From the NCBI GenBank assembly GCA_947626535.1, contig CANQSO010000007.1:1-39715 (forward strand): a DNA stretch of 39,715 nucleotides, written 5' to 3'. Source of the stretch: an uncultured Bacilli bacterium (GTDB lineage: Bacteria; Bacillota_I; Bacilli_A; RF39; UBA660). How positions within the stretch are numbered: the first letter of the stretch is position 1; each line of letters begins with the position of its first letter. Positions 122 to 38,481 of the stretch are shown one piece after another. The notes beneath the pieces are model-generated. The model saw only the letters and a program-made list of their open reading frames with translations, did not search any database and was not told where the DNA came from. The translations under genes and the position numbers were made by a program.

Positions 122-202
122 GTTTATAAAGAAAAAAAGTTGATAATTTGTAGTTTTTTAATCTTTGAAAATTATATATTATATGAAAAGGAATGGTTAA
201 AA

Positions 203-3034: not shown

Positions 3035-3062
3035 GAGAAAAAATGAAAAAGAGGTATTTTTT

Positions 3063-5063: not shown

Positions 5064-5076
5064 AGGAGCAAAGATA

Positions 5077-7794: not shown

Positions 7795-7805
7795 AGGATT
7801 ATATT

Positions 7806-8537
7806 ATGGCTAAACTTAAATTAAAAAAGAAATATAAATTATTTATTTTAAATTTTATATTAATATTACTTATCATAATTTTTATTTTATCTTCTTATAA
7901 TTATTTTCATAATTTATTTGAAGATAAAAAAAATAATAATTTGTATCAAGAAATTATTAATGATTATACAATTATTAATGAAGATGATAATTCAAATGAA
8001 ATTAATGATTATATTGATGTAAAAAAATTAAAAGAGGTAAATTCTGATGTAAAAGGTTGGATTTCAATTCCAAATACGAATATTAATTATCCAATATTAC
8101 AGGGAAGCAATAATAATTATTATTTAAATAGAGATATAAATAAAGAATATAATCGTAATGGTTCAATATTTATGGATTATCGAAATCATGAATTTAATGA
8201 TAATAATACCATAATATATGGTCATAATATGAATACTGAGGCCATGTTTAGTGATTTGATTAAAATAATAAATGGTAATTTAGGAAATAAAATAAGTATT
8301 AAAATTACAACAATTGATAAAGAAATAACTTATGATATTTATAGAACTTATTTAGCATCACCAACTGATGAATTACCATTAGATATTAATAAGAATAACT
8401 ATGATTTATCTTCTTCAAATTATATATATAATAAGATAGAAGATAAGACACTTACATTATCAACATGCAATAATAATGGCAAAAAAAGGATTATTGTTCA
8501 TGCCATAAAAAGCCAAGAAAAAAATCTTGTCAATTAA
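7806..8537 (+). CDS. srtB: Class B sortase
   Basis: Sortases are membrane transpeptidases that attach surface proteins to peptidoglycan. This 243-aa protein has a cytoplasmic basic start, one N-terminal membrane segment (about 11-31) and an extracellular catalytic domain. His140 (YGHNM), Cys221 (LTLSTC) and Arg228 (KKRIIVHA) are the expected triad, and the 'TLSTC...RIIVHA' ending is typical of class B. It lies between the dockerin genes and the cohesin scaffold gene, whose C-terminus carries SPQTG. That agrees with the (N/S/P)PxTG preference known for the Clostridioides difficile class B sortase. The likely substrate is therefore the next protein in the operon. Confidence 0.9.
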   Translation: MAKLKLKKKYKLFILNFILILLIIIFILSSYNYFHNLFEDKKNNNLYQEIINDYTIINEDDNSNEINDYIDVKKLKEVNSDVKGWISIPNTNINYPILQGSNNNYYLNRDINKEYNRNGSIFMDYRNHEFNDNNTIIYGHNMNTEAMFSDLIKIINGNLGNKISIKITTIDKEITYDIYRTYLASPTDELPLDINKNNYDLSSSNYIYNKIEDKTLTLSTCNNNGKKRIIVHAIKSQEKNLVN

Positions 8538-8555
8538 AAAATAAAGTGATAAGAT
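8527..8555 (+). promoter_or_regulatory. Internal promoter before the cohesin scaffold gene
   Basis: TTGTCA (8527-8532), a 17-base spacer and TAAGAT (8550-8555) with an upstream TG (extended -10) form a good promoter about 40 bases before the scaffold start. It would let the scaffold be made in excess over the dockerin proteins. Confidence 0.6.
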
Positions 8556-8594
8556 TAAAGTGATAAATTTGAATAAATTGAAAGGGTGAAAGTA

Positions 8595-11500
8595 ATGAAA
8601 AAATTATCAAAAATGTCATTATTTTTACTTGTACTTTTAGTGTTTGCAATACCAATTTATGTATTAGCAAATCAAAATTCAGTATTTACTGTACAAGTAA
8701 AAGATTCTGAGGGTGTCAGTATTACAGAAGCACATCCAGGGGATACAATTGTTTTGGATGTTGGTTTAAAAGGAGCAACAGAATATGCTGCAATTGGTAT
8801 TGAAGTACCAGTTGATACAAGTGCTTTTGAAATTGTTAGTGTAGAAGAACCAGATGAAACAGAGTATGCAAGATATTATACAACTTTTGGAGCACACGCA
8901 GCTGCAGCTTCTAATGATAAAACTAAAGGTATGTTTACTGCTTCTTTTGCTAAAGCTAATGCTATAAATACCAATTATAATGGTGCATTTGGTAAGATGA
9001 CTTTAAAAGTCAAAGATGATGCTGCTGGTGATTATGAATTTAAAGCAACAGTAACCGAATTTAAAAAGAAATTAAGTGAAAATGCTGGTGATGATGAAGA
9101 TATTACTACTTACACAACTGAAGTAGGCAAAATCAAAATTCTTGTTCCAGCAACTGGTATTAATGTTCAAGAAGAAAATGTTGATTTATATTGGGGTGAT
9201 ACCTATCAAATAGATGTTACACCTATACCAGCAAATACTACTACGGCTAAAGACGAAAGTTATAGTATTTTAAGTGGAGAAAGTGTTACAGTTTCTACTA
9301 CTGGCAAAGTTGAAGCTGTTAAAAATGGTGAAACAAAAGTAAAAGTTAGTGCATACGGTTATGATAAAACTATTACTTTTAATGTAACTAATCCAATTAA
9401 AGAATTACAATTAGACCAATCAGACGTTGAATTAGAAATATTAGATAAGCAAAATAATGGTGGTGGGATTACTTATGGAAGTATTAATGTGACACCAAAT
9501 ATTGTTTTACAAAATCCTGATGGCGACTCAAGTGATGATGAAACTATTACTTGGGAAAGTAAAGAAAACTCTATAGCTAAAGTAGAAGATGGTAAAATAA
9601 CTGCTGTTAGTGGTGGAACAACTCAAATAATTGCTAAAACAACTACTGGAATTTCTGCCAGTGTTAATGTAACTGTTAAAGTTCCAATAACAAGTGCATC
9701 AATAAGTGAAACTGCAGATATTACTTTAAATCGTGGAGCTACAAAAGATTTAAGTGTTACATATTATCCATTAAATACAACTGATAATAAAACAATTAAA
9801 TGGGAAAGTACTAAACCACAAGTTGCTACAGTAAATAATGGTAAAGTAACTGCTGTTAGTGGTGGAGATACGGTAATTAAAGCATCTATTGGCGAATATA
9901 ATTTTGAAGTAAATGTTCATGTATTTGTTGATATTGATTCTTTAGATATTTTAGATGAAGATTTCTCATTAGTAGCACCACAAACTAAGAAATTAAATTT
10001 ACAAATTAATCCTAGTGATACAAGTGAAAAAAGTAAAATTACTTGGGAAAGTAATCATGGAGATATTGTAAGTGTTGATCCTGATGGAACTGTTCATGCT
10101 CTACAACCTGGTGATGCAACAATTACTGTAAGATATAAAGATAAAAGTGATTCAGTTAATATTAAAGTATTAATTCCAATTGATTCAATTACAATATTAC
10201 CAAATAGTGATATAACAATGAATAAAGGAGAAACAAAAAATCTTAGCGTTGATATCCAACCAGCTACTGCTGAAGAAGATAAAACTGTAACATGGGAAAG
10301 TGATAATCCTAATGTTGCTACAATTGATAAAACTAGTGGTTTATTAAAAGCTGTTGGTGGTGGAAGTGCAACGATTACAGCTCGTTTAAAAAATGGTAAA
10401 ACTGCAACTGCTACAGTTACAGTAAAAGTACCAGTAACAGAAGTAATTCTTGAAGATGGCAAAGAAAGTATTAATGTAAATAAAAATACGACTAAAACTA
10501 TCAAAATTAAAATAAATCCAAGTGATTATACTGACACAACCCCAACTCATTGGGAAAGTTCTAGTGAAGAAGTTGCAACAGTTAATCAAAATGGTGAGAT
10601 AACTGCTTTAAGTAATGGTCAAACTATTATAACTGCTACAAAAGATGGCAAAAGTGATACAATTATTGTTTATGTAATTACGCCAATTGAAAGTGTTGTT
10701 ATAAATGAAAAAAGTGGTTTAACAGATAATACAATGCAATTAGAAAAAAATCATGAAACTAATTTAACAGCTACTGTAAATCCTAGTGATACTAACGAAG
10801 AATATACTTTAAAATGGTCAAGTAGTGATGATGATATAGCTTCTGTTAGTGCAACTGGTGTCGTAACTGCTAAAAAAGCTGGTACAGTAACAATAACAGC
10901 AACAGCTAATAATAAAAGTGATAGTATCAAAGTAAATGTATTTGTTCCAATAAGTTCATTTACACCAACTAAAGAAGATATTGAAATTATTAAAGGTAAA
11001 ACTTTTAAAGTTTCTTATCAAATAAATCCAAGTGATGCAACTGAATCTAAAGTTATTGCTTGGTCTAGTAGCGAAAATTCTGTTGCAACTGTAAATAGTG
11101 AAGGAGTTATTACAGCTTTAAAAGAAGGTACTACAGTTATAACTGGTACATTAAAAAATGGAATGAGTATTAACATAAATGTTACAGTTAAAATTATTCC
11201 ATTAAATGATATCGAAATATCTGCACCTGAAGAAATGTTAAAAGGTGAGACTTATGATATGGAAATCACACCAGATCCTATTGATACTACAGAGTTAAAT
11301 AATGTATTATATAGTTCTAGTGATGAAAGTATTTTAACGGTTGATGAAAATGGTAAAGTTACAGCCCTAAAAGAAGGAGAAGCAAAAATAAAAGTTACCG
11401 TTGGTGAAATTGAAAAAGAAATAACTATTAAAGTTAATGAAATTCATGTAGAAAAGATTCAAATTAATTCTCTTGATGAACTTACAGTTGGAAATGGTGG

Positions 11501-11864
11501 TAAATTAGGTGTAAGTGCTTATCCAGCAAATAACACAGATAATTTAACATATACTTATGAATCAAGTGATGAAAGTATTTTAACAATTGATAAAGATGGT
11601 AATTTTAAAGCTCTAGCTAGTGGTACAGTAACAATTACCGTTACAGCATCAAATGGTCAAAAACAAACTTTAACAGTTAAAGTAATGGCAAAACCAGTTG
11701 AAGATGAACATACATCTGATGAAAATGTCACAAATAATGAAGATTTGGTAAGCCCTCAAACAGGTGCTACATCGAATATTGTTAATTTGATTTTATCCAT
11801 AATTTCTTTAGGATTAATTGGAGTATTTGGATATGCAAAACATAAAATCATTAAAAATAATTAA
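8595..11864 (+). CDS. Cell-wall-anchored cohesin/Big_2 scaffold protein
   Basis: This 1,089-aa protein is started at ATG 8595 because AAAGGGTGA lies five bases upstream and the signal peptide follows directly; an in-frame GTG at 8586 is part of that ribosome binding site. After the signal peptide, residues about 25-175 look like a cohesin domain (TEAHPGDTIVLDVGLKG, later GKMTLKVKDDAAGDYEF). About ten Big_2 domains follow as a stalk (residues about 180-1,040). The C-terminus is a sorting signal: SPQTG, a hydrophobic helix and a basic tail (YAKHKIIKNN). The preceding sortase gene is its probable anchoring enzyme. It would display a single cohesin far from the wall to capture the dockerin proteins encoded upstream. 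Sequence supports the architecture; the binding partners are inferred. Confidence 0.85.
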   Translation: MKKLSKMSLFLLVLLVFAIPIYVLANQNSVFTVQVKDSEGVSITEAHPGDTIVLDVGLKGATEYAAIGIEVPVDTSAFEIVSVEEPDETEYARYYTTFGAHAAAASNDKTKGMFTASFAKANAINTNYNGAFGKMTLKVKDDAAGDYEFKATVTEFKKKLSENAGDDEDITTYTTEVGKIKILVPATGINVQEENVDLYWGDTYQIDVTPIPANTTTAKDESYSILSGESVTVSTTGKVEAVKNGETKVKVSAYGYDKTITFNVTNPIKELQLDQSDVELEILDKQNNGGGITYGSINVTPNIVLQNPDGDSSDDETITWESKENSIAKVEDGKITAVSGGTTQIIAKTTTGISASVNVTVKVPITSASISETADITLNRGATKDLSVTYYPLNTTDNKTIKWESTKPQVATVNNGKVTAVSGGDTVIKASIGEYNFEVNVHVFVDIDSLDILDEDFSLVAPQTKKLNLQINPSDTSEKSKITWESNHGDIVSVDPDGTVHALQPGDATITVRYKDKSDSVNIKVLIPIDSITILPNSDITMNKGETKNLSVDIQPATAEEDKTVTWESDNPNVATIDKTSGLLKAVGGGSATITARLKNGKTATATVTVKVPVTEVILEDGKESINVNKNTTKTIKIKINPSDYTDTTPTHWESSSEEVATVNQNGEITALSNGQTIITATKDGKSDTIIVYVITPIESVVINEKSGLTDNTMQLEKNHETNLTATVNPSDTNEEYTLKWSSSDDDIASVSATGVVTAKKAGTVTITATANNKSDSIKVNVFVPISSFTPTKEDIEIIKGKTFKVSYQINPSDATESKVIAWSSSENSVATVNSEGVITALKEGTTVITGTLKNGMSININVTVKIIPLNDIEISAPEEMLKGETYDMEITPDPIDTTELNNVLYSSSDESILTVDENGKVTALKEGEAKIKVTVGEIEKEITIKVNEIHVEKIQINSLDELTVGNGGKLGVSAYPANNTDNLTYTYESSDESILTIDKDGNFKALASGTVTITVTASNGQKQTLTVKVMAKPVEDEHTSDENVTNNEDLVSPQTGATSNIVNLILSIISLGLIGVFGYAKHKIIKNN

Positions 11865-12699
11865 TATATTTATCTTATTAATTAGCATCTTTTTTCTAAA
11901 AAAAATTGATGCAGCAGAATTACCCACTTTTGAAGTGGGTAATTCGCTTGTAAAAACTGGTGAAGAAATTGAAGTTCCAATTGCTATTAAAAATAATGTT
12001 GGTTTTAGTATAATAGGAATGAAAATAGATTTTGATGAAAACAGTTTAACATATATTGATGGAGAAATGCTTGGCTTTGAAAATTTTAGTATGAAAGACT
12101 TGGCTATAAATGATTCAAATATTATTTCTTTTTATGCAATTTCTTTTAACGAAGTATATACTAATAATCAAAACCTTTTATTATTAAAATTTAAAGTTAA
12201 TGACAATGCCCTTGATAGTGATATTAATTTAGATGTTACTGATTATGCAACTAGTGATTTAGAAACTTTAGAATATCAAGTAATTAATGGAAGAATTACA
12301 ATTACAAATCCTAAAGAAGTTCAGAATGATAATAGTGAAAATAATAGTAAAACAAATAAAGAAGATAATTCAAAAACAGTTACTGATAAAAAAATAGAAA
12401 AAGTAAAAGTTGGAAATAAGATTAATTATAATCTTGAAAATAATCATAAATTAGAATCTTCAAATAATGATATTGCAGTAATTAATGAAGATAATACTAT
12501 TACTTTTAATAAGCCTGGAAAAGTAGAAATTGTTGAAACAAATGAATATGGTGAAATAGTTAATACAAAACAATATAATGTAGTTAAAAAAAGACCTATA
12601 ATTATTTATATTATTATTGTTTTAATTTTATTAATATTTATCTTAATTATGAAAAATATTAAAGATAAGAAGTCTAAAAAAAGCAAAAATTTACATTAA
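11833..12699 (+). CDS. Membrane-anchored cohesin-domain protein
   Basis: This 288-aa protein starts at ATG 11833, with GGAG nine bases upstream inside the end of the scaffold gene; the 32-base overlap suggests translational coupling. It has a signal peptide (about 1-28), then a cohesin-like domain at about 28-160 (GNSLVKTGEEIEVPIAIKNN, LLLLKFKVND, ending GRITI). A polar Asn/Lys/Glu-rich linker, a small Big_2-like strand region (KVGNKINYNLE...) and a C-terminal membrane helix (about 256-275) with a basic tail follow. It has no sorting motif, so it should stay in the membrane. It may be a second, cell-proximal docking site. A perfect 13-bp hairpin lies in its early coding region. Confidence 0.8.
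   Translation: MQNIKSLKIINIFILLISIFFLKKIDAAELPTFEVGNSLVKTGEEIEVPIAIKNNVGFSIIGMKIDFDENSLTYIDGEMLGFENFSMKDLAINDSNIISFYAISFNEVYTNNQNLLLLKFKVNDNALDSDINLDVTDYATSDLETLEYQVINGRITITNPKEVQNDNSENNSKTNKEDNSKTVTDKKIEKVKVGNKINYNLENNHKLESSNNDIAVINEDNTITFNKPGKVEIVETNEYGEIVNTKQYNVVKKRPIIIYIIIVLILLIFILIMKNIKDKKSKKSKNLH
11917..11945 (+). repeat. Perfect 13-bp hairpin inside a coding region
   Basis: GAATTACCCACTT and its exact complement AAGTGGGTAATTC are separated by only TTG. The hairpin sits just after the signal-peptide codons of the membrane cohesin gene and is GC-richer than its surroundings. There is no T-run after it, so it is not a standard terminator. Confidence 0.85.
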
Positions 12700-17774: not shown

Positions 17775-17806
17775 TGCAAAATTGCAATTTAAAATGCAAA
17801 ATTGCA
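17775..17806. promoter_or_regulatory. Paired palindromic operators at the head of the conjugative region
   Basis: Two perfect TGCAAAATTGCA palindromes (17775-17786 and 17795-17806) have centres 20 bp apart. The second ends ten bases before a TTGACA -35 box, nearly as in the LysR promoter. Confidence 0.75.
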
Positions 17807-17816
17807 GTTATGCCCC

Positions 17817-17844
17817 TTGACATTTTTGCAAAAAGTTGTAAGAT
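17817..17844 (+). promoter_or_regulatory. First promoter of the conjugative region
   Basis: TTGACA (17817-17822), a 16-base spacer and TAAGAT (17839-17844). The spacer holds a further palindrome, TTTTTGCAAAAA (17823-17834), which could be a repressor site. Confidence 0.65.
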
Positions 17845-20591: not shown

Positions 20592-23500
20592 ATGAAATTA
20601 AAGAAAAATAAATTTTTAAAACATGGACTTTTTTTAACAATGTTAATTGGACTTATGGTAAGTCCTTTTTCTTTTGGTAAAAAAAGTGTTAATGCTCAAA
20701 CATATACAGACACAATTACCGAACATGGACAAGACACGGAAGATTATGTCTTTTATCGGCATTTAACAACACCATCACTAGCAAAATCACATTTAATTAC
20801 AGTAATTAAAAGGGATAGTGATGGACATTTTGTATATTGTATTCAACCAGGTAGTCAAATTATCTCTGGAGTGCAGTATACTGGCTATACTAGTGATTAT
20901 GCTGTAATTACTAGTATGACACCAGAACAATGGAAGCGAGTTCAATTACTTGCTTACTATGGTTATATGTATAAAGATAATGAAGTAGACCATACTTCTT
21001 TAAAGTGGTATTCAATTACTCAATTTATGATATGGAACAGTGTCCCAAGAGAATATGAAATATATTTTTCATCTGATTTAGGAAATCACAGAATTGAAAA
21101 ATATACAAATGAAATTGCAGAAATGGAAAGACTATTAGCAAAACACTCCATGGCAGTAAGTTTTAATGGAAAAACTGTTAATTTAGCAAAAGGTGAAACA
21201 AAAACTTTAACCGATTCTAATGGAGTTTTAAAAGAATATACAGTTGAATCAACTGATAATGTAGATGCGAAAATTTCTGGAAATACCTTAACATTGACAG
21301 CTAAAAATGATGGTGCATATAAAGTTGAATTATCAAGAAAAGATAAAAAATATAATACACCACCAATTGCTTATATAAGTTCAGAAAGCCAAAATGTTGT
21401 TATGGTTGGAAGTTTTGATCCAATTTTAAATACAGTAAAAGGAACTACTAAATCTGGTTCTATAAACTTAAAAAAATATGATTCAATAACTAAATCATGC
21501 AAATCTCCAGAAGGGGCTAGTTTAAATGGAACAACTTTTAAATTATATAAAGAAGATAACACATTTATTCAAGATTTAGTAGTTGATTCAAGTTGTAATG
21601 CTAATGCTTTAAATTTAGGAATAGGAAGATATTATTTAAAAGAATCAAAAGCAGGAAAATATTATGAAGTAGATAGTGAAAAGCATTATTTTAATATAAC
21701 AGCTGATTCATTAAATGCTAGTCTTACTCTTTATAATACTCCAATGTTAGGACAAGTAAGTATTAAAAAATTTGATTCTAAAACCAATAGTTGTAATTCA
21801 CAAGGTTCAGCAACCTTAGTTGGAGCAGTTTATGGTATTTACAAATTAGATGGAACACTAGTAAGTAAATTAACAATTGGAAATAATTGTACTTCAACAA
21901 GTGAAAAAAACTTGCCTATTGCAAAATATTATATTAAAGAAATTACAGCTCCAAAAGGATATAAGTTAGACGAAACAACGCATCCATTTGAAATTAGTGA
22001 ACAAAATTATAAAGCAACAGTAAACTTAACTTTAACTGATGAAGTTTATACATCAAATTTAGTAATTAATAAAACATATTTAACCGAAAATGGAGTTAAA
22101 GCTGAAGTAGGAGCTAAATTCGACATTATCTCAAAAACAACAAATAAAGTAGTAGCAACTATTACAATTGGTGATTCTGCAACAGGTGAAGTAAAATTAC
22201 CATTCGATAACTATATCATTCGTCAAACTAAAGGAATGAGTGGTTATAAAAAATCTGATGATATTGATTTTACGGTTAATGAAAAATCAAAAGATAAAGA
22301 ATATATTACTTTAATGAATGAACCTTATGTTGCTAGAGTAAAAGTAAAGAAAGTTGATACAGATGGAAATGCAATACCTATGAGTGGCATTAAATTTAAA
22401 ATTTTTGATATTACAAATAATAAATATGTATGTCAAACAATTGCTTATCCTAATCAAATGACTATCTGTGAATTTGAAACTAATGAAAATGGTGAATTTA
22501 TAACACCTAAAGAATTATATCCTGGAAAATATCGATTAGAAGAAGTAGACCAACTTATAGATGGCTATTTATGGAATAGTGAGGGTATTGAATTTACAAT
22601 AGATGAACATTCTAAAATAATTAAAGATAAAGACTTAGGAGAAATTTTAAGTTTAACTTTTGAAAATCAAGAAGTTAAAGGAAAATTAGAAATTCAAAAA
22701 ATTGGTGAAAAAGTTGTAATTAAAGATGGCAACTTTACCTATGTTGAAGCACCACTTCCAAATATTACATTTGGTTTATATGATGAAAGTGGAAATTTAA
22801 TTGGTAAATATAAAACTGATGAAAATGGATATTTAAAAGTAGAAAATTTAAAACTTGGGAAATACTCTTTAAAAGAACTTGAAACAGTAGATGGCTATAT
22901 TTTAGATGAAAATGTATATGAATTTGAACTTAAATATCAAGATCAATATACACCAATCGTTACAAAGTCATACATATTAAGTAATTATCTAAAAAAATCT
23001 AATTTAGAATTTACTAAAAGTGATTTAGCTACAAGTGATGGAATAAAAGATACTAAGATAGAAATTTATCATTTAAAAGATGATGGTGAATCTGAATTAA
23101 TTTTTACAGGTTTAACTGATGAAAACGGTAAGATAACTATTACTGATTTATTTGTAGGAAAATTCTATATTCTTGAAAGTGAAGCAGCAACAGGATACCT
23201 ATTAAGTGATGAAAAAGTTTATTTTGAAATTAAAGAAAATGGTGAAATTGTTAAAGCTGAAATGAAAAACCAAAAAATTACTGGAAGTTTAGAATTTTCT
23301 AAAGAAGATTTTTCCACAGATGAACCTATTCCAAATACGGAAATTGAAATTTATGATGCTAATACAGATGAATTAATTTATACGGGTAAAACTAGCGAAG
23401 AAGGAAAAATTGTAATTAGTGAAATCCCATATGGAGATTATTATATTTTAGAAAAAAATGCACCAATTCCCTATGCATTAAATGCTGAAAAAATGTATTT

Positions 23501-23969
23501 TAGTATTAAAGAAGATGGTGAAGTTATAAAAGCTACTATGAAAGATAAAGTTATAACTAGCAAAGTAGGTCTTCACAAAGTAGATGAAAAGAACAAACCA
23601 ATTGAAGGTGTAATAATAGGTGTTTATAAAACTGATGGAACATTATTAAATGCTTATGTTACTGACAAAAATGGTGATATTGAAGTAGAACTTGAATACG
23701 GTTCTTATTATTTTCAAGAAATTGCCACAATTGATGGTTATGTCTTGAGTGATGAAAAAGTATATTTTGATGTCTTAAATGATGGAGAAGTCATACAAAA
23801 AACTTTAGTAAATGAACTTGAAGAAATTGAAGTGCCAAATACTTTATCAAATTCATATTTAGATTTAGTGGCTATAGGAATGATTGGTTTAGGTGGAGTT
23901 TTATATATTACATCTAAACATAAAAAGAATAAAAAGGTTGAAATAAATAAAGAAAGTGAGGAAAAATAA
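20592..23969 (+). CDS. Thioester-domain adhesin with eight SpaA/Cna-B-like repeats
   Basis: This 1,125-aa surface protein has a signal peptide (about 1-35). A thioester domain follows, in which Cys83 (VYCIQPG) and Gln144 (ITQFMIW) are the pair that forms the internal bond used for covalent host or cell attachment. About eight prealbumin-like SpaA/Cna-B domains form a stalk, each beginning with a K-[KE]-x-D-type strand and ending near 'Y.L.E....GY'; many probably carry isopeptide bonds. The C-terminus has a VPNTL motif at 1081-1085, a hydrophobic helix and a basic tail, an atypical sorting signal. The gene lies inside the conjugation operon, so it probably promotes cell-cell contact during transfer. 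Confidence 0.85.
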   Translation: MKLKKNKFLKHGLFLTMLIGLMVSPFSFGKKSVNAQTYTDTITEHGQDTEDYVFYRHLTTPSLAKSHLITVIKRDSDGHFVYCIQPGSQIISGVQYTGYTSDYAVITSMTPEQWKRVQLLAYYGYMYKDNEVDHTSLKWYSITQFMIWNSVPREYEIYFSSDLGNHRIEKYTNEIAEMERLLAKHSMAVSFNGKTVNLAKGETKTLTDSNGVLKEYTVESTDNVDAKISGNTLTLTAKNDGAYKVELSRKDKKYNTPPIAYISSESQNVVMVGSFDPILNTVKGTTKSGSINLKKYDSITKSCKSPEGASLNGTTFKLYKEDNTFIQDLVVDSSCNANALNLGIGRYYLKESKAGKYYEVDSEKHYFNITADSLNASLTLYNTPMLGQVSIKKFDSKTNSCNSQGSATLVGAVYGIYKLDGTLVSKLTIGNNCTSTSEKNLPIAKYYIKEITAPKGYKLDETTHPFEISEQNYKATVNLTLTDEVYTSNLVINKTYLTENGVKAEVGAKFDIISKTTNKVVATITIGDSATGEVKLPFDNYIIRQTKGMSGYKKSDDIDFTVNEKSKDKEYITLMNEPYVARVKVKKVDTDGNAIPMSGIKFKIFDITNNKYVCQTIAYPNQMTICEFETNENGEFITPKELYPGKYRLEEVDQLIDGYLWNSEGIEFTIDEHSKIIKDKDLGEILSLTFENQEVKGKLEIQKIGEKVVIKDGNFTYVEAPLPNITFGLYDESGNLIGKYKTDENGYLKVENLKLGKYSLKELETVDGYILDENVYEFELKYQDQYTPIVTKSYILSNYLKKSNLEFTKSDLATSDGIKDTKIEIYHLKDDGESELIFTGLTDENGKITITDLFVGKFYILESEAATGYLLSDEKVYFEIKENGEIVKAEMKNQKITGSLEFSKEDFSTDEPIPNTEIEIYDANTDELIYTGKTSEEGKIVISEIPYGDYYILEKNAPIPYALNAEKMYFSIKEDGEVIKATMKDKVITSKVGLHKVDEKNKPIEGVIIGVYKTDGTLLNAYVTDKNGDIEVELEYGSYYFQEIATIDGYVLSDEKVYFDVLNDGEVIQKTLVNELEEIEVPNTLSNSYLDLVAIGMIGLGGVLYITSKHKKNKKVEINKESEEK

Positions 23970-25311: not shown

Positions 25312-26976
25312 ATGCTCTTATTAAGTATAGGAAGTGATATAAAATTTGGCGTATTAGATATTTTAAGAGGAATTGGTATGGCAATTATCAATATCATATT
25401 TTCAACAATAGATACATTATATAATGTAGCAGAAAAAATAAATAGTTTAAATTTAATTCAAATGTTGGAGAATGTAGATAATTCACCATTCACTAAAATA
25501 TTTAATGCCTTTTTTATATTATCATTTGTAGTATTGCTATTATTTGCAGTTTGGAAAATATCATTTAGAATATTAGATGCCGATACTAATGAACAACCTT
25601 TGTTTGAATTAGTAAAAGAAATAGTAAAATGTGGTTTTTTAATTTTTAGTATTTACTTAATTTTTAATACAAGCATTAATATAGGAATCAATTTATCATC
25701 TTCAATTTATAATAATTTTACAACAACAAATTCAACTATTGGAGATAAGATGAAAACATCATATTTAACATTAAATGAAGCATGTTATAAAGTTGATAAA
25801 GGCGATAATGTAGATAAAGAAAATGTCAAAAAATTAAAAGAAAAATTAGAAGGCTATGCAAATGTTTCTAGTGCTAAAACAATGGCAGATTTTGAAAATT
25901 TAATAAGAAACGATACTATTAATGCAACTCAAATATCAGATTCAGGTTCATTTTCATTTCGTTGTTCAATTTATAAACAAGGAATATGGAATGATAAAGA
26001 AGATTATGCTTTTAATTATAATTTTTTATTTGGAATTATAATAGGAACAGTATTTTTATTTAGTATAGGTTTTTCGGTTTTAATGTTAGGTAGAAGACAA
26101 TTAGAATTAGCATTTTTAATGGTAATTTCACCATTAGTAATAGCAACTAGTGTGGGAAGAAAAGAACAACGTTCAGCATTGTATCAACAGTTAGCAAGTT
26201 TAATTTTGCAAGCTGGAGCAATGATGTTACTAATTGGTTTAACTTCCATAATGTTTAATGCGATTCAAAATAGTCCAGAAATAAATAATTTAGATTATTT
26301 TACAAAAGTTGTAGCTCAATCAGTTTTATATTTAGGTTGTGCCATGATGTTAATGACAGGTTGTACTTCACTTAATAGATTTATAGGTGAAAATGTATCA
26401 GCAAATAGTGGTAGAGATATGATGATGGCTATGAGAGGTTTAAAATCAGGAATAATAGGTGCAGGAGCTATAGGCTTAGGTGCAACAAAAGCAGCAAAAG
26501 ATATAGGTGTTGGCACTATTAAAGCTGGTAAAGGAATAGGACAAGTAGCTAAAGGTGGAATAAAAACTGCCAAAGGAATGTACTATGGAGCTAGTAATTC
26601 ATATTCACCATCATCACATCAAGGTATATCTAGAAGAATGGGAGAACAAGTTGGCAAAGGAATTAGTCAAATGATGAAAGGTGAAGAATTTCAAAAAAGT
26701 AGTAATCCTATTGCTAGGGCTTATGGAAGAATGCTTTCATCACATGGCGAAAGTAATATTAATGACCTTAAAAGCAAATGGGACTTTTCTAGTGATACAT
26801 ATAACCCAGATTATATTAAATCAGGAGTGAATCTTGCTAGAGCAGGAATTAATAATATTAAAGATGGTTTTGGAGGAGCATTTAATAGTATTAAAAATAT
26901 TGGTAATCCAAATAGTATGCGATACAAAAAACGTCCAAAAATAAGTGAAATATTTAAGGAAAGCGAAAAGATATAG
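25312..26976 (+). CDS. VirB6/TrbL-like polytopic channel protein
   Basis: This 554-aa inner-membrane protein has several membrane helices in the first 360 residues (for example FNAFFILSFVVLLLFAVWKI, FLFGIIIGTVFLFSIGFSVLM and LILQAGAMMLLIGLTSIM). A Gly/Ala/Lys-rich cytoplasmic tail follows (about 380-554). The order VirB2-VirB6-VirB3-VirB4 and the 'LELAFLMVISPLVIATSVG' segment are typical of TrbL/VirB6 proteins of Firmicutes conjugation systems. It would form the DNA-conducting membrane pore with VirB4. The start is four bases after the previous stop. Confidence 0.75.
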   Translation: MLLLSIGSDIKFGVLDILRGIGMAIINIIFSTIDTLYNVAEKINSLNLIQMLENVDNSPFTKIFNAFFILSFVVLLLFAVWKISFRILDADTNEQPLFELVKEIVKCGFLIFSIYLIFNTSINIGINLSSSIYNNFTTTNSTIGDKMKTSYLTLNEACYKVDKGDNVDKENVKKLKEKLEGYANVSSAKTMADFENLIRNDTINATQISDSGSFSFRCSIYKQGIWNDKEDYAFNYNFLFGIIIGTVFLFSIGFSVLMLGRRQLELAFLMVISPLVIATSVGRKEQRSALYQQLASLILQAGAMMLLIGLTSIMFNAIQNSPEINNLDYFTKVVAQSVLYLGCAMMLMTGCTSLNRFIGENVSANSGRDMMMAMRGLKSGIIGAGAIGLGATKAAKDIGVGTIKAGKGIGQVAKGGIKTAKGMYYGASNSYSPSSHQGISRRMGEQVGKGISQMMKGEEFQKSSNPIARAYGRMLSSHGESNINDLKSKWDFSSDTYNPDYIKSGVNLARAGINNIKDGFGGAFNSIKNIGNPNSMRYKKRPKISEIFKESEKI

Positions 26977-27260: not shown

Positions 27261-29720
27261 ATGAAAGAAAAAAGAGATATTAAGAAAAAATTAAAAGAGG
27301 CTAAGAATGTGAAAATTGCTAAAGAAAAAAAATCAAATGTCTATTTATCTAGTAAAAGATTAAAAAGAAAATTGCAAAATTCACAAAGTATAACAAACAT
27401 CAAAAATATAAATGATGATGGTATTATTGAATTAAAAACAAATCAACTTGCAATTTTTTATAAGGTAAATCCAATTGATTTATCATTAACTAATAGTAAT
27501 GAACAAAATTTGTTTTTTTCAACTTTAGCAAAATTATTTAGATTATCATTTCCAATTAAAGCATATAAATTTGATGAAAAAATAAATCTAAATATTAATA
27601 AAGAAAATTATTTGCATTTAATAGAAAAAAATAAGGATAATCAAGCAAGAAAAGATTTATTAATAAATAATCATAATTTTATAGAACAAATAGAAAATGA
27701 AAATATGACATCAGCTAGTTCATATTATTTTTCAATTATAGCTAAGAATAAAGAAAGTTTAGAAAAAAACAAAGAAGAATTTGAATTAGCTTGTAGTGAA
27801 ATTGTACCTAAGTTAGAAATTGAACAGATAAAAAACAAAAAAAATTTAGTAAAAATATTTGCTAATATGTATTTTGCTAATTGCAATTTAGACCAAATAA
27901 TTTATTATGATTTTATTGATTTAGTTGCGCCAATAAAGATATCTGAACAAATGTCATTTTTAAAGTTTGATGATGAAGAAATTCAATTATTATCAATTAA
28001 AAATTATCCATTGTTTATAGAACATGGCTTTTTAGATAGAATAATTAATTTACCAAATGTTAAAGCATCTATAACAATAAATGAATCAATCGAGCAATAT
28101 AAATTGATTAATATTTTAAATAGTAGCTTTAAAGCAGTGTTAGCAGATTATAATTCAAGTAAAAATTTAAGTGATGTAACTGAAATGCAATCTTTAATGA
28201 ATAATTATAAAATGTTAATAGAACAGATATCATCAAATGATGAAAAAATAAAAGATGTAACCGTAATATTAGCAATTAGTGGTAATAAAAAAACAAGAGA
28301 GGATTTAGTTAAAGAAATAAAACGAAATGCTGAATTATATCAAATTAAGGTAGATATTCCAAGATTAAGACAAATGGAAGCATGGCAAAGTTATGATTTA
28401 ACAGATAAATCATTTAAAGATTATAATATGTATTTACCAACTGTTACTCTAGCAAGTACTTTCTTTTTTACAGAAAATTATCATAATGATAGAACAGGGT
28501 GGTTAATTGGTGAAGATTCAGCTTATGGCTTACCAGTTTTTTTTGATCCATATTTTCTAAATAAAGAAAGAACAAGCCATAACATTGGGTTAATTGGAAC
28601 ATCAGGTTCAGGAAAAAGTTATTTGTTAAAATTAATGATAACTAATGAGTTTGCAAGAGGAACAAAATTATTTTTATTTGATATTGAAAATGAATTGCAA
28701 AAACTATGTGAAAGATGTGGTGGAGAATATATTGATTTATCTAGTAAATCATTGATTAATCCACTGCAAATACGTTATGTACTTACAGATGATGATGAAG
28801 AAACATCAATACTTGGTAAACATTTAGGTTTTTTAGAAAACTTTTTCATAACAGCATTTGAAAATATTTCTGAAAAAGAATTAGTCGTTTTATTAGATGT
28901 TGTAGAAAAATTTTATAATAGTCGAGGTATAACTAAAAAAACGCCAATTGAAGTTTATGAAAAAATGAGTGCCAAAGACTATCCTATTTTTTCTGACTTG
29001 TATGCTTTTTTATTAGAAGAACAACGAAAAAGTGAAAATGAAGATATTGCTAAAATTTTAGTTAATATTGAGATTCTTTTAAAACGAATGGTTATTGGAC
29101 AAGATAGTAATTTATTTAACGGTATAACAACAATTGATTTAAGTAATAATTTAGTAGTATTTAATTTGCAAGAATTATTATTTAATTCTAGTAGAAGATT
29201 AGTAAATACCCAAATGATAAATTTATTAACGTATTTGAGTAATGAAATTGTTGATAATAAAAAACGTAATACTAAGTTTAATGAAGATAATAAAATGCTA
29301 ATAGTATTAGATGAATTTCATAATTATATTGATGAAGATAATCCAACACTTTTAAAATATTTCGATCAACTAAATAGACGAGCAAGAAAGTATAACTTAG
29401 GAATTGTAGTAGCAAGTCAACAACCAAGTGACTTTACTACTAGAAGTAATATTTTAAGACACGCATCAGCAATATTTAATAATTGCCAATACCAGATAAC
29501 AGGAATGTTAAAAGACACAGATGTTGAATCAGTAGAAAAATTATATTCCAATACACCTTTAACAGAAACCCAAAAAGCATTTTTATCTAGTTGTAATCAA
29601 GGGCAATTTTTGTTAAATATTACAAATAAAAATCGTCTTAGAATAAATGTTTTTGCAACACCTTTACAACGATATTATATGGGTGAAACGGATGAATTGC
29701 CAATTAATAGTGAACAATGA
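27261..29720 (+). CDS. virB4: VirB4-family conjugation ATPase
   Basis: This 819-aa protein is the energising ATPase of the type IV secretion system. The N-terminal 350 residues form the divergent VirB4 domain. The motor domain has Walker A (GTSGSGKS, about residue 445) and Walker B (LIVLDEFHNY, about 680), followed by the RRARKYNLGIVVASQQPSDF motif of VirB4/TraC proteins. 'TERTSHNIGLIG'-like text before Walker A and 'GQFLLNITNKNRLRINVFAT' near the end are also typical. Length is normal. It overlaps the next gene by four bases (ATGA). Confidence 0.92.
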   Translation: MKEKRDIKKKLKEAKNVKIAKEKKSNVYLSSKRLKRKLQNSQSITNIKNINDDGIIELKTNQLAIFYKVNPIDLSLTNSNEQNLFFSTLAKLFRLSFPIKAYKFDEKINLNINKENYLHLIEKNKDNQARKDLLINNHNFIEQIENENMTSASSYYFSIIAKNKESLEKNKEEFELACSEIVPKLEIEQIKNKKNLVKIFANMYFANCNLDQIIYYDFIDLVAPIKISEQMSFLKFDDEEIQLLSIKNYPLFIEHGFLDRIINLPNVKASITINESIEQYKLINILNSSFKAVLADYNSSKNLSDVTEMQSLMNNYKMLIEQISSNDEKIKDVTVILAISGNKKTREDLVKEIKRNAELYQIKVDIPRLRQMEAWQSYDLTDKSFKDYNMYLPTVTLASTFFFTENYHNDRTGWLIGEDSAYGLPVFFDPYFLNKERTSHNIGLIGTSGSGKSYLLKLMITNEFARGTKLFLFDIENELQKLCERCGGEYIDLSSKSLINPLQIRYVLTDDDEETSILGKHLGFLENFFITAFENISEKELVVLLDVVEKFYNSRGITKKTPIEVYEKMSAKDYPIFSDLYAFLLEEQRKSENEDIAKILVNIEILLKRMVIGQDSNLFNGITTIDLSNNLVVFNLQELLFNSSRRLVNTQMINLLTYLSNEIVDNKKRNTKFNEDNKMLIVLDEFHNYIDEDNPTLLKYFDQLNRRARKYNLGIVVASQQPSDFTTRSNILRHASAIFNNCQYQITGMLKDTDVESVEKLYSNTPLTETQKAFLSSCNQGQFLLNITNKNRLRINVFATPLQRYYMGETDELPINSEQ

Positions 29721-33286: not shown

Positions 33287-34255
33287 TTGGAAATGGAAAA
33301 AGAATTTTTTGATTTTTTAAAAAGTGATAGAGTTATAGAAACATTTAATTATAATAATAATTCAAAAATAATGGTTAATAAAATTAAATGTAACGATAAA
33401 ATAGATATATTATATTCATTAGATACCTATAATGGAACTTTTTTTGATTTGAAAACACCGTTTAAATATAGTGGTATTTATGATAAAGAAAATAATAAAT
33501 TGTATGATATTGATTATTTTTTAAAAACACGTTTATTAGATTGGGATTACAATGATGATAGGTCAATAAGTTCATCTGAATTGCATAAAAAAATAAGCCA
33601 AGATATGAATGATAAAATTAATGAATTAATAGTTGATAATAAAAACGATATTTTTAATATTGAAGAAGTTGAAATAGCAGAAGAAATAAGCGAAAAAGAT
33701 ATTTTAAATGACTTTATGGAGGGAGAAACATCTGCCACATTAAAAGATTTTTATATAGAATATAGAAGTGAAAAACCACAAAATATAATTGATTATTTAA
33801 CTGATAAAGAACCATTTTTAGAGGAAGAATCAAGAGATTTTATTATGAATAATATGACAAAAATTATAAAAGGTTTAGTTATTTCAAATGAAAAAAGAAA
33901 AGTACTAAAACAAATTGAAGAAGATAAAACGCACCCTTACCATAAAATAAAAGAAATAGTAGATTCTGTAATTAAAAATAGGTGTGTAACTGTTAATTTA
34001 ACAATAAATAAATCTGGAATAGAACAAACTTTTAAATATGATGCAGAGATGCTTAAAAATAATTTTAATTCATCTTATTTATCAACTTATGGAATTGAAA
34101 AATTAGCTGAAAGAGATTTATTTGAAAAAACTTACGGTAGATGTGAAGTTATACATTATGAGGATATTGTTAAAATAACCTATGGTAAAAAAACTATTTA
34201 TGAAGATTTAAATTTTAAAGAAAAAGAAAAGCAGGAAGAAATATGCAGTTTGTAG
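33287..34255 (+). CDS. Hypothetical protein before the primase gene
   Basis: This 322-aa protein probably begins at TTG 33287, seven bases from GAGGGGG; ATG 33293 is the alternative. It is charged and cytoplasmic, with an N-terminal strand-rich part (about 1-100) and an acidic helical middle. Its C-terminal section (VTVNLTINKSGIEQTFKYDA, IVKITYGKKTIYEDL) looks like a small beta-rich domain. No family is recognised. It overlaps the primase start by 13 bases. Confidence 0.55.
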   Translation: MEMEKEFFDFLKSDRVIETFNYNNNSKIMVNKIKCNDKIDILYSLDTYNGTFFDLKTPFKYSGIYDKENNKLYDIDYFLKTRLLDWDYNDDRSISSSELHKKISQDMNDKINELIVDNKNDIFNIEEVEIAEEISEKDILNDFMEGETSATLKDFYIEYRSEKPQNIIDYLTDKEPFLEEESRDFIMNNMTKIIKGLVISNEKRKVLKQIEEDKTHPYHKIKEIVDSVIKNRCVTVNLTINKSGIEQTFKYDAEMLKNNFNSSYLSTYGIEKLAERDLFEKTYGRCEVIHYEDIVKITYGKKTIYEDLNFKEKEKQEEICSL

Positions 34256-35223
34256 ATAGAGATGATATAGATGCTTTTAAATCAATGCTTGCTGATTATT
34301 TAATAACTAAACACAATATTACAAATTTAAAAGATAACTTTACTTGTTTGAATCCTAATCATGAGGATAAACACCCTAGCATGAATTATTCAAGTAAGTA
34401 TAATATTTGTCATTGTTTTGGTTGTGGAATAACATATGATATTTTTGATTTAATTGGACAAGATTATGGAGTAGATTCTTTTAAAGAAAAAATTCAAATT
34501 GCTCAAAGATTATATCCAAATATTTCAAATATTATATTTAAAAAAGCAGATGTAATAGAATCAGAAAATAAAATAGATTTTACAAACTATTTTAAAAAAT
34601 GTCTTAATAAAATAAATGAAACAGATTATTTAAATAAGCGAAAAATAGATTTAAAATTACTAAAAAAATATAATATAGGGTATGATGATAAAAAAGAAAT
34701 GGTTATTTTTCCAATTAATAAATATTGTTATTTTGCTAGAAGTGTTTCAGGAAATAGTAAGATGAAATCTAAAGGAAAAAGTTATTTGTGGAATGAAGAA
34801 TTAATCAAAAATTCTGATAAAAAAACATTAATATATGTAACAGAAAGTATCATAGATTCTTTATCATTAGAAACAATAGATCCAAATGTTAATACCGTTG
34901 CGTTAAATGGTGTTACTAATTATGGAAGACTATTAGAAGTGGTTAAGGAAGAAAATTTTAAAGGAACTTTTATACTAGTTTTTGATAATGATAAAGCTGG
35001 TGAAATGTATCAAAATATTGTGAAAGATGAATTAAAAAAAATAAATATTAATTCATTTAAAGCAGATTTAATTTCTAATTTTAGTACGGAAGAAGTCAAA
35101 GATTTAAATGAAGCATTGATAAAAAATAAAGATATTTTGTTAGAAAAATATAATTATTTTAATGATAATTATAAAATGTTTGTAGAAAAAAATAATGAAA
35201 ATGAGGTGGATTTAGAACTATGA
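34243..35223 (+). CDS. DNA primase (CHC2 zinc finger plus Toprim)
   Basis: This 326-aa protein has the CHC2-type zinc finger with ligands Cys35, His40, Cys58 and Cys61 (CLNPNH ... CHCFGC), followed by a Toprim-type domain: the acidic Glu in IYVTESIIDSLSLE (about 198-212) and the DxD in LVFDNDKAG (about 245-253). It would make RNA primers for replication of the transferred strand. It is much shorter than host DnaG and lacks a helicase-binding domain, as is usual for plasmid and element primases. It is coupled to the next gene by ATGA. Confidence 0.85.
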   Translation: MQFVDRDDIDAFKSMLADYLITKHNITNLKDNFTCLNPNHEDKHPSMNYSSKYNICHCFGCGITYDIFDLIGQDYGVDSFKEKIQIAQRLYPNISNIIFKKADVIESENKIDFTNYFKKCLNKINETDYLNKRKIDLKLLKKYNIGYDDKKEMVIFPINKYCYFARSVSGNSKMKSKGKSYLWNEELIKNSDKKTLIYVTESIIDSLSLETIDPNVNTVALNGVTNYGRLLEVVKEENFKGTFILVFDNDKAGEMYQNIVKDELKKININSFKADLISNFSTEEVKDLNEALIKNKDILLEKYNYFNDNYKMFVEKNNENEVDLEL

Positions 35224-35669
35224 ATAATGAAAAAAATTTGAAAGAAAAAATAAGTGAAAAAGATAAAGCTAAGTTAAATTATAAACAAAAATTAGAACTT
35301 ATTAAACAACATTATGGAGTAGAATTTGATGTAACATCTTTAAAAGATGGAAGTATAAATGATGTTAAATTTATGAATTTAAAATACAAAAATGAATTTA
35401 ATAATTTAACAATTGTATACAACAATGTTTTAAAAAAATTTGATTATTTATTTTGTGAATATATTGATGTTAAGACAGTTAAAAATTTAAATCATAAAAA
35501 GGTAATTCCAATCTTAAATAAAGAATACAAATTAAAATTGATAATAGCTGAAATAAATCGAGCAAATGAAGAATACAGAAAAAAAATTAATGAAATTGAA
35601 TCTAAATATCAAGCAACAATTGATAATAATGAAAAAGTGTTACAAATTAAAAAAAATGATGAAGAATAA
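35220..35669 (+). CDS. Hypothetical charged, partly coiled-coil protein
   Basis: This 149-aa protein is very rich in Lys, Glu and Asn. Helical coiled-coil-like ends (NEKNLKEKISEKDKAKLNYK and NRANEEYRKKINEIESKYQA) flank a short strand-rich centre. It overlaps the primase stop by four bases and ends the replication block just before oriT. Function unknown. Confidence 0.55.
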   Translation: MNNEKNLKEKISEKDKAKLNYKQKLELIKQHYGVEFDVTSLKDGSINDVKFMNLKYKNEFNNLTIVYNNVLKKFDYLFCEYIDVKTVKNLNHKKVIPILNKEYKLKLIIAEINRANEEYRKKINEIESKYQATIDNNEKVLQIKKNDEE

Positions 35670-35731: not shown

Positions 35732-35847
35732 GCATATAATTATATGCGTTTTTGCAAGTGCAAAAACATTTTTACACCAAAAATTTTGAATAGAAGCCTT
35801 ATAAAATAAGGGTTCTTTTCAAAATTGGTGTAATCATCATATCCTGT
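35732..35847 (+). other. oriT: Candidate origin of transfer (oriT)
   Basis: In order: a perfect 16-bp palindrome GCATATAATTATATGC (35732-35747), a palindrome GTTTTTGCAAGTGCAAAAAC (35748-35767), and a long imperfect hairpin (35774-35831) with arms beginning ACACCAA and ending TTGGTGT. Its inner stem is CCTTAT/ATAAGG. Then comes TATCCTG (35840-35846), the core of IncP-type MOBP nic regions, where the cut would fall after the G. This lies just upstream of the RHH accessory and relaxase genes, as in many MOBP systems. The exact nick site is inferred. Confidence 0.75.
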
Positions 35848-35904: not shown

Positions 35905-36072
35905 ATGATAAAGATATTTGAAATAATATTTTTTTTAATGTCTATGAAAGCATTAATAATTCATAAAAATTCAGTTTTTGATTTCTTAATTATTTTGATT
36001 GTTTTAATAATTTTTTTTCTACTTGAAAAATTAATTGAATTAAAAATTGAAAGGGAACAACATAAAATATGA
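35905..36072 (+). CDS. Small membrane protein (55 aa)
   Basis: ATG 35905 follows AAAGGAGGT and encodes a 55-aa protein with one hydrophobic segment at about 25-40 (FDFLIILIVLIIFFLLEK), possibly a second weaker one near the N-terminus, and a charged C-terminus. Its stop overlaps the next start (ATGA). Strong ribosome binding site and coupling support it as a gene. Function unknown. Confidence 0.6.
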   Translation: MIKIFEIIFFLMSMKALIIHKNSVFDFLIILIVLIIFFLLEKLIELKIEREQHKI

Positions 36073-36467
36073 AAGCATATATTTTTATAAATGGTATGGT
36101 GATACCTAAAACTTTAAATAAAAAAAATGAAGCTGATTGGATAGATTTAGATGAACAATTTTCTTACGAATTATGTAACTATGGTATAAGTAAAAAATTT
36201 GAAAATTGTAAACAAGGTGCAATAGAAGATATTACTAAAACACCTCTTGGAAATTTAAATATTATTCCAAATAGTTACATAGGAATATTTGAAGTTGATT
36301 TAGATTTAGAAGAATATGATTCAATTGATGATAATAGTTTTCTTGCTGATTTTGATATTTTAGAAAAGGTAAATAAAAATAAAGATAAATTAATTTTTAG
36401 TGCTATGTATGATTCAAAGAAAAATTATGTAGAAAATTTTATCAATCAAAAAAATATGGAGTATTAA
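36069..36467 (+). CDS. Hypothetical protein of the mobilization block
   Basis: This 132-aa acidic cytoplasmic protein is coupled to the small membrane protein before it. It shows a mixed strand/helix pattern (NSYIGIFEVDLDLEEYDSI, LIFSAMYDSKKNY). No domain recognised. Its place between oriT and the RHH genes suggests a relaxosome or plasmid-biology role, without direct evidence. Confidence 0.55.
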   Translation: MKAYIFINGMVIPKTLNKKNEADWIDLDEQFSYELCNYGISKKFENCKQGAIEDITKTPLGNLNIIPNSYIGIFEVDLDLEEYDSIDDNSFLADFDILEKVNKNKDKLIFSAMYDSKKNYVENFINQKNMEY

Positions 36468-36787: not shown

Positions 36788-37015
36788 ATGAGAGAAAAAG
36801 TTGTTAGAAGAAGTGTTACGATTCCAAAAAATTTAGATACAAAAGTTTCTGCACTAGCTGAAAAATATTCATATAAAGTTAAAAACGATTTGTATGTAGA
36901 GTTATTAGAATTAGGAGCAATTAAATTTGAAGAAGATATTTCATTAAAAAATACGGTTTTAAATTTTATGAATAGAGTTGATGCTGTATTAGAAAAATTA
37001 GAAGAACCTAAGTAA
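36788..37015 (+). CDS. Ribbon-helix-helix mobilization accessory protein 2
   Basis: This 75-aa protein begins MREKVVRRSVTIPKNLDTKV, with ALAEKYSYKVKNDLYVELLELG after it, matching an RHH fold. AGGAGG lies inside the end of the preceding gene, and its stop overlaps the relaxase start (TAATG), so both are translated together. A relaxosome component, possibly a heteromeric partner of the protein before it. Confidence 0.7.
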   Translation: MREKVVRRSVTIPKNLDTKVSALAEKYSYKVKNDLYVELLELGAIKFEEDISLKNTVLNFMNRVDAVLEKLEEPK

Positions 37016-38481
37016 TGTTAGATGATTCAAAAACTATATTTATTACGCATCCTTATTATGCAGTTAATAACCCAGATAATAATTTTAGAATTTATAAGAA
37101 AGGCAAAAATTCTGATAGATGGCATTATACACAATGTAAAAATAAAATTGAATACCAAAAAAAGATAAAGGAATATATCTTAGGTTTTTGGGAATATACA
37201 AGAGATGAAGAAAAAGCATATACAAATGTTAGTGATTATCTTGAAAAAGATAACTCATCAATGTTTGATTATTTTATGGGTGGAAAAAAAGATGAAAAGA
37301 TTTTAATTGAAAAAAAGATGAAAAGAGAAGAAATGGCTATGACTAATAATGGTAATTTTTTAACGGATAATGATGCCAAAAACATGAGTAAACGTTGGAG
37401 CAAATATATTGATGATAGCAATATTGAATTAGCTGTTTTATCATTTAATCAAAAATATGTAGATAAAAATATTGATATTAAAGAACTACATAAGAAAATT
37501 ACTACAGATGTTATGCCAAAATTTTTGAGTTATTGTGGTTATGAAAAACCAAAAGAAAATTTGGAGTGGATTGTCGCATTGCATAATGATAGAGATAATA
37601 ATTATCATTTTCATATTGCATGGATTGAGAAAAATAAATGTTATAAAACCAAAAATAATAAATTAGAACACCGTAGGAAATTAATGTTAGAAGAAAAAGA
37701 GATTAATTTTATGAAAAGGCAAGCAGTTTTAACAATAGAAAGAAAAAAACTGTATACACCAGCAATTATTGAATTAGGAAAGAATTTAGATCAATTAAAG
37801 AGTTATTTTAACCCTAAAGATTGTAATTTTACTTTAAAAAATATAAAAGACTTAGAATTTGAAGAAAAAATAATTAAGTTAGGTTTTCTAATAAATGAGA
37901 TTCGTTCTACTGATAAAAAATATATTAAATATAATTCTCTACCAAAAAATCAAATAGGTTATGATATTAGGAGTTTAACAAAGGAAATTAAAAAAGATAT
38001 TTTTAAACAAAGTAAAATGAAACAATTAACAAAGGAAATAGAAAATGCAATCAATAAAATTAATGATATATTAATAGATATAGATAAAAGAAATAATATA
38101 TCAAAAGTAGGGTTTGAAAATATTTTAGAAAATAAATTAATCAAGGAAAAGATTGAAGCAGAAGATAATTATATTTTAAATGCTATTGTGAATCATGCTT
38201 TATATAATTTTTCTTATTATCGAAAAAAACTTAATAAAGACAATTTTAAATTAGAAGATTTAATTGATGAGATGGCATATCAATTTTATAAAAAAGATTT
38301 TAAAGAATTAAGAAATAAAAAAATATATTATACAAAAAAGAAATTGTTGATAAGAACTTTTAAAGGAAAAAGATATAAGAGTAATATTGAATATGCACTT
38401 GATAGACTTGGTTATGAACAAGAACAAGCTGCTAAAAAATTCTATGATATGTTTAATGAAACAAATGAATATGAAATATAA
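37015..38481 (+). CDS. MOBP-type relaxase
   Basis: This 488-aa protein has the metal-binding relaxase motif HNDRDNNYHFHIAW (His190, Asp192, Asn195, His198, His200), equivalent to HxDxxNxHxH of MobP/MobL enzymes. The N-terminal 180 residues hold the catalytic Tyr region (YEYTRDEEKAYTN-like text near 59-71) and SKRW..YIDDS; the precise nicking Tyr cannot be assigned by eye. The C-terminal half is helical and basic. It would nick oriT and stay attached to the transferred strand. Coupling to two RHH genes and the upstream IncP-like nic core support the call. Confidence 0.82.
   Translation: MLDDSKTIFITHPYYAVNNPDNNFRIYKKGKNSDRWHYTQCKNKIEYQKKIKEYILGFWEYTRDEEKAYTNVSDYLEKDNSSMFDYFMGGKKDEKILIEKKMKREEMAMTNNGNFLTDNDAKNMSKRWSKYIDDSNIELAVLSFNQKYVDKNIDIKELHKKITTDVMPKFLSYCGYEKPKENLEWIVALHNDRDNNYHFHIAWIEKNKCYKTKNNKLEHRRKLMLEEKEINFMKRQAVLTIERKKLYTPAIIELGKNLDQLKSYFNPKDCNFTLKNIKDLEFEEKIIKLGFLINEIRSTDKKYIKYNSLPKNQIGYDIRSLTKEIKKDIFKQSKMKQLTKEIENAINKINDILIDIDKRNNISKVGFENILENKLIKEKIEAEDNYILNAIVNHALYNFSYYRKKLNKDNFKLEDLIDEMAYQFYKKDFKELRNKKIYYTKKKLLIRTFKGKRYKSNIEYALDRLGYEQEQAAKKFYDMFNETNEYEI

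Follow-up and report, generated by a model that had tools for sequence, protein, structure and literature searches.

The stretch of DNA analysed here (the window) is a complete contig of 39.7 kb, from a parent genome of 1.53 Mb that is 68% complete and whose nearest records are 'uncultured Bacilli' MAGs from rabbit gut and other animal guts. Conjugation genes in this window are followed by a non-coding gap, between the end of an ORF at 35669 and the start of a short ORF near 35905, and then by two small genes with RHH-like products and a relaxase gene. The sequence-only reading had placed two adjacent palindromes, a long hairpin and the motif TATCCTG in this single gap, ahead of RHH and relaxase genes in an AT-rich Bacillota element, and all of these are indeed present. 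The features are as follows.

25312-26976, plus strand: VirB6-like conjugation membrane protein (pLS20_p028 family, E 3.9e-16)
27261-29720, plus strand: VirB4-type conjugation ATPase (Mbov_0397 family; NCBIfam E 1.6e-140, below the curated cut-off)
34243-35223, plus strand: DnaG-like primase (zinc finger and Toprim), directly upstream of the putative origin of transfer (oriT)
35732-35747: palindrome 1, GCATATAATTATATGC, a variable inverted repeat
35748-35767, plus strand: palindrome 2, GTTTTTGCAAGTGCAAAAAC, with the core TTTYGCAAGTGCRAAA at 35750-35765, the near-invariant box of the oriT family
35772-35833, plus strand: hairpin of the putative oriT, outer stem TACACCAA/TTGGTGTA, inner stem CCTTAT-aaa-ATAAGG
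35840-35846, plus strand: putative nic core TATCCTG, at a fixed position in relatives
36069-36467, plus strand: small protein between oriT and accessory genes, found in close relatives, absent from L036/L037/L039
36470-36787, plus strand: candidate relaxosome accessory protein 1, 105 aa, RHH-like N terminus (NikR-type RHH match, E 4.6e-4)
36788-37015, plus strand: candidate relaxosome accessory protein 2, 75 aa, RHH-like, conserved in relatives
37015-38481, plus strand: relaxase, 488 aa, assigned to a diverged MOBL/MobP2 type; H190, H198, H200 triad and candidate catalytic Y61/Y86

The contig stops 1.2 kb past the 3' end of the relaxase gene, and the integrase and the ends of the element therefore lie outside view. 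None of the window proteins scanned was recognized as a coupling protein.

The gap is organized as an oriT would be: it is non-coding, adjoins a relaxase gene and has inverted repeats 5' of a conserved core, these features sitting 1.17 kb upstream of the relaxase gene. The arms of the hairpin are at 35782-35802 and 35806-35826, and the fold extends pairing to 35772-35833. As single-stranded DNA the hairpin reaches -21.0 kcal/mol, compared with -5.7 (sd 1.9) for 200 shuffles, none of which is as good (z = -8.3); hairpin and palindromes folded together give z = -10.2 relative to shuffles. TATCCTG alone is unremarkable (six occurrences in the window vs 3.0 expected), and what makes it notable is that relatives keep it at a fixed position behind the hairpin. 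The extended core of the window is CATATCCTGTTG, and by analogy with IncP-type sites the nick is predicted between 35846 and 35847 (TATCCTG/T).

We searched for the relaxase in 291 genomes of the bacterial family (28 positive) and in the species collection (8 loci), and compared the upstream regions. The box TTTYGCAAGTGCRAAA was found upstream of 34 relaxase genes of related gut Bacilli, on the same strand and 0.6-2.4 kb away, and the module order in these loci is the box, a hairpin and then a TATSCYS core 61-77 nt past the box. The reversed box, used as a control, does not occur in the 291 genomes. Palindrome 2 is a conserved element of the family, and TATCCTG follows the hairpin in all close relatives. 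The sequence of palindrome 1, which an RHH protein of relaxosomal or regulatory function may bind, is kept only in the closest relatives (L032, L042 and partly L035), with different inverted repeats at its position in other clades. The core and its distance from the box define three classes: CATATCCTG at 74-77 nt (class 1, including the window), CTTATCCTG at 61-67 nt (class 2; 76 in L037/L038) and CTTATGC(T/C)C at 63-67 nt (class 3). The genome of the window (G000) contains two further oriT-relaxase modules of the same family (L046 and L054, at G000:C1:38238 and G000:C3:29095), both with TATGCYC cores.

Outer stem sequences vary widely (ACACCA, GCACCA, GATATCAC, GGTACCA, TGTGTAT, TCCCTAT and others) and show strong covariation across 110 distinct oriTs. 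At least 7 contiguous Watson-Crick pairs form in 80% of these sites. Pairing the arm of one site with the opposite arm of another in its class lowers the share to 18%, and shuffling the arms lowers it to 3%. Among 392 genomes sampled across the phylum, only the bacterial family of the window showed the module, bar one chance match, and among known plasmids there was no convincing case of the TTTYGCAAGTGCRAAA box. Seven pattern matches on viral contigs have neither hairpin nor relaxase and are put down to chance, and carriage of the module by phages was rejected.

On its own, the window relaxase matches no relaxase family model, including MobL, MobP2 and PF03432; it has no tblastn match among plasmids, and its AlphaFold model (pLDDT 77) gave no significant PDB fold match to a relaxase. 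It aligns over its length with full-length homologues that match MobL (PF18555, 15 of 33) or MobP2 (NF041498, 19 of 33) at E<=0.01, two paralogues in the same genome score above the MobL cut-off, and RelLS20 of pLS20 is recovered by a family profile, with a domain E of about 1e-6 when two sequences were searched. Judged by these homologies, it is a diverged MOBL/MobP2 enzyme of the pLS20/pWBG749 type and not plain MOBP. The three-histidine motif III and N-terminal tyrosine of that class are present, and H190, H198, H200, Y61 and Y86 are invariant in a 33-sequence alignment. The gene order is also that of MOBL/MobP2 systems, with the oriT upstream of the relaxase and one or two RHH-like (weakly assigned) genes between them. 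The RHH assignment of both small proteins is weak: the best PDB matches to the profile of the first are the RHH proteins NikR and 2kel (E 0.012-0.019), and the second gives a weak best match to NikR (E 0.1).

Two known systems share this layout. In pLS20, the MOBL prototype (PMC5313138), the oriT is followed by two RHH proteins and the relaxase (PMC5675868), and a related VirB6-like protein is found in the window; unlike the window, pLS20 has neither the GCAAGTGC box nor TATCCTG. The oriTs of the pWBG749 family likewise have a hairpin 5' of a TATSCTS core, with an RHH gene and then the relaxase downstream on the same strand, and SmpO, the RHH protein encoded between oriT and relaxase, determines oriT specificity (PMC8136818). 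The window differs from that family in its TATCCTG core and in the TTTYGCAAGTGCRAAA box, which in the genomes surveyed was confined to the bacterial family of the window.

The module also occurs away from relaxases. Sites with box and core number 112 in the 291 family genomes. A MOBL relaxase adjoins 26 of them, and the other 86 are relaxase-less, meaning that no MOBL relaxase lies within about 5 kb or within the shorter distance to a contig end; MAG fragmentation may hide some relaxases. Both kinds of site are carried by 11 genomes, and 53 have only relaxase-less sites. Nine more box matches are without a core (five chance or coding-looking, four truncated or decayed). A large serine recombinase is encoded in 57 of 84 relaxase-less loci (PF00239 and PF07508 confirmed for five), upstream or downstream of the site, on either strand and 0.05-5 kb off. 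Restriction-modification genes and amidases are also among the neighbours. Other relaxase families are absent from the 25 commonest Pfam families among 124 neighbours of these sites (singletons are not listed), and a MOBV-looking protein lies about 4-5 kb from a few of them. Empty-site searches for two of the elements did not reveal the element ends. Many copies of such large serine recombinase genes are present in G126 and G006, and the relaxase-less sites span L115-L206.

These 86 copies look like relaxase-less integrative elements mobilized in trans by oriT mimicry, a strategy already known from staphylococcal plasmids. In some genomes the stem of the mimic resembles that of the resident relaxase-bearing oriT: both contain GGTGCAACTACGA in G163, and TTTGATATCAC is shared by the two in G008 and G019. 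The copies could instead be what is left of former MOBL elements after decay, and not functional mimics, as a few are clearly decayed (L165, L186, L191), the MAGs are fragmented and some sites are near contig ends. We consider this unlikely, given that 86 of 95 retain the core at the right distance along with covarying stems, that an accessory-like gene is kept beside the oriT in only 8 of 84 loci, and that cassettes of recombinase and oriT are shared at 80-99% identity between genomes in which their flanks differ. As mimics, the small serine-recombinase elements would most likely excise by their own recombinase and rely on MOBL elements, co-resident or incoming, for nicking and transfer in trans. 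Relaxase-less copies are also widespread in the pWBG749 family, there on staphylococcal plasmids (PMC4652767, PMC8136818), whereas here the hosts are uncultured gut Bacilli, the mimics lie beside serine recombinases and the contigs look chromosomal. Relaxase-less islands of the MGIVflInd1 type similarly combine mimicry of an ICE oriT with their own recombinase (PMC5704250), but with tyrosine integrases and SXT-type oriTs in Gammaproteobacteria, in contrast to the large serine recombinases and MOBL-type oriT described here. Relaxase-free mobilization has so far been documented mainly for staphylococcal, E. coli and Acinetobacter plasmids and for proteobacterial islands, and comprehensive searches for relaxase-less islands had not been made according to a review (PMC5704250). 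In dozens of related genomes, near-identical start sites lie on small relaxase-less elements, which probably borrow the nicking enzyme. The TTTYGCAAGTGCRAAA box is a simple tag for finding such elements, making it testable who can move whom.

The core itself differs among relatives of the window locus: many carry the published CTTATGCTC-type core, and sister clades with the same box and hairpin have TATGCYC. Core type tracks relaxase phylogeny, changing three times on the relaxase tree (none of 500 shuffles was as low), and every TATCCTG clade is fully supported. A hairpin with CTTATGCTC is present in 11 of 13 MobP2 plasmids, pLS20 and pWBG637 among them. From this we infer a rooting in which TATGCTC probably came first and the IncP-like TATCCTG arose from it. 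At MobP2 loci of other families of the class, detected with NCBIfam, a simple pattern did not find the core within 1.5 kb, with one possible exception. These natural switches of the nic core within one relaxase family offer a handle on the residues that read the nicking site. Column 139 of the relaxase alignment is K in all aligned TATGCYC relaxases and L, Q or M in the TATCCTG ones. As sole determinant of core type this residue was rejected, RelLS20 appearing to have Q with a TATGCTC core, and it is a weak lead. For the family as a whole, we lean slightly towards a large relaxase-in-trans network whose specificity classes are set by the hairpin stem and by a nic core that changed between TATGCTC and TATCCTG about three times within one relaxase family, and in which few MOBL elements serve many serine-recombinase elements that share the oriT only.

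The nic site of RP4/IncP (MOBP) is YATCCTG/Y with a hairpin 5' of the core, and the TATCCTG/T of the window fits this consensus. The gap had accordingly been read as a MOBP oriT with an IncP-like core; the oriT and the IncP-like core hold, and the MOBP assignment does not. The window relaxase does not match PF03432, the cognate relaxase type of MOBP, and phylogeny and homologues point to MobL/MobP2. It is very unlikely that the element captured a true oriT of the MOBP/IncP lineage together with a MOBP relaxase. The heptamer and the position of the hairpin would suit such a capture, 15 of 33 family relaxases weakly match PF03432, and pLS20 itself is typed as MOBP by MOB-suite; however, the relaxase groups with MOBL/MobP2 in the tree, the hairpin differs from that of RP4, and close relatives join the same box and hairpin to TATGCYC, which shows that the core varied within one family. 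TATCCTG is thus a variant of CTTATGCTC, the standard MOBL/MobP2 core, and not proof of IncP descent. The MOBP label was near, not exact, because MOBL has been reported as the family closest to MOBP (PMC5313138) and because of the MOB-suite typing of pLS20.

Still less probable is that neighbouring serine recombinases use the module for attachment or resolution, and that it is no oriT. The recombinases in 57 of 84 relaxase-less loci agree with this, as does DNA homology between several of these loci that ends 30-105 nt past the core. The side, strand and distance of the recombinase are variable, and the site is therefore not a fixed att site; moreover, only two relaxase-bearing loci have a serine recombinase in the sequence stretch examined, the module in relaxase-bearing loci invariably precedes the relaxase closely and in the same orientation, and its core equals or resembles published nic cores (PMC4652767). 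We see next to no likelihood that the hairpins serve to terminate transcription or act as a regulatory RNA element ending the primase operon, since palindrome 2 followed by ATTTTT scores as terminator-like but this T tract is not conserved, the GCAAGTGC centre is, there is no Rfam match, and the core is conserved outside any helix.

We conclude that 35732-35847 is almost certainly the oriT of a mobile element, judging from the stability of the hairpin, the conserved co-oriented module beside 34 relaxases, the covarying stem and the RHH genes in between. MobP2 plasmids share the hairpin and CTTATGCTC, the core that holds the pWBG749 nic site (within CCTTATGCTCTTACGG; PMC4652767), core type follows relaxase phylogeny, and conjugation genes lie upstream. 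The oriT core of the window does not match the published MOBMG core, CTTATGCTCTT (PMC4652767), whereas sister clades have CTTATGCTC. Against this reading we counted the lack of a direct family-model match and of a significant fold match for the window relaxase, the weak RHH assignments, the contig end near the relaxase, the missing coupling protein and the published pLS20 nick, which is elsewhere and on the other strand. With these included, we are highly confident that the whole represents an oriT, belonging to an integrated conjugative element or to a fragment of a conjugative plasmid, in the genome of an uncultured gut Bacilli bacterium.

In pLS20 (NC_015148, L209:13480-13900), a hairpin TGGTACCA...TGGTGCCA is followed by CTTATGCTC. 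The published nick, mapped on the opposite strand (PMC5313138), is about 40 bp downstream of CTTATGCTC. The comparative pattern predicts a nick at CTTATGCTC itself, in conflict with the published position, which may need remapping; the conserved hairpin and CTTATGCTC thus question the true nick position of that model plasmid.

From the anatomy, conservation, covariation, gene order and dispersal of the module we infer how protein binding, nicking and transfer might proceed. The two RHH-like proteins would bind the palindromes, and possibly the hairpin arms, and would help to bring in and place the MOBL/MobP2-type relaxase, whose gene lies 1.2 kb downstream. Opening of the strand would let the hairpin extrude, and the relaxase would cut the plus strand after TATCCTG (35846/35847) and remain on the 5' end. 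It could then pilot the strand, with the accessory and relaxase genes leading, through the VirB4/VirB6-type channel encoded upstream.

A half-site of the oriT had also been reported in a promoter spacer at 17823, hinting that a relaxosome protein may regulate early expression. The site at 17823-17834 is TTTTTGCAAAAA, between TTGACA and TAAGAT. Its two half-sites overlap rather than flank AG, no GCAAGTGC centre is present, and the window has 11 copies of TGCAAAAA where 7.9 are expected, which is no enrichment. The spacing and enrichment do not support an oriT half-site there, or regulation through it. Directly 5' of the promoter-like TTGACA, where the transfer region starts, operator-like repeats (CTGCAAAATTGCA.. 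/ TGCAAAATTGCAG) are present at 17775-17834.

The window also encodes surface proteins. An adhesin-like protein with a thioester domain and multiple SpaA domains lies within the conjugation region (20592-23969), and a series of large secreted Ig-like (Big2-type) proteins occupies 140-12699. Three of these share one dockerin-like stretch at the C terminus, and a sortase-like gene lies among them at 7806.
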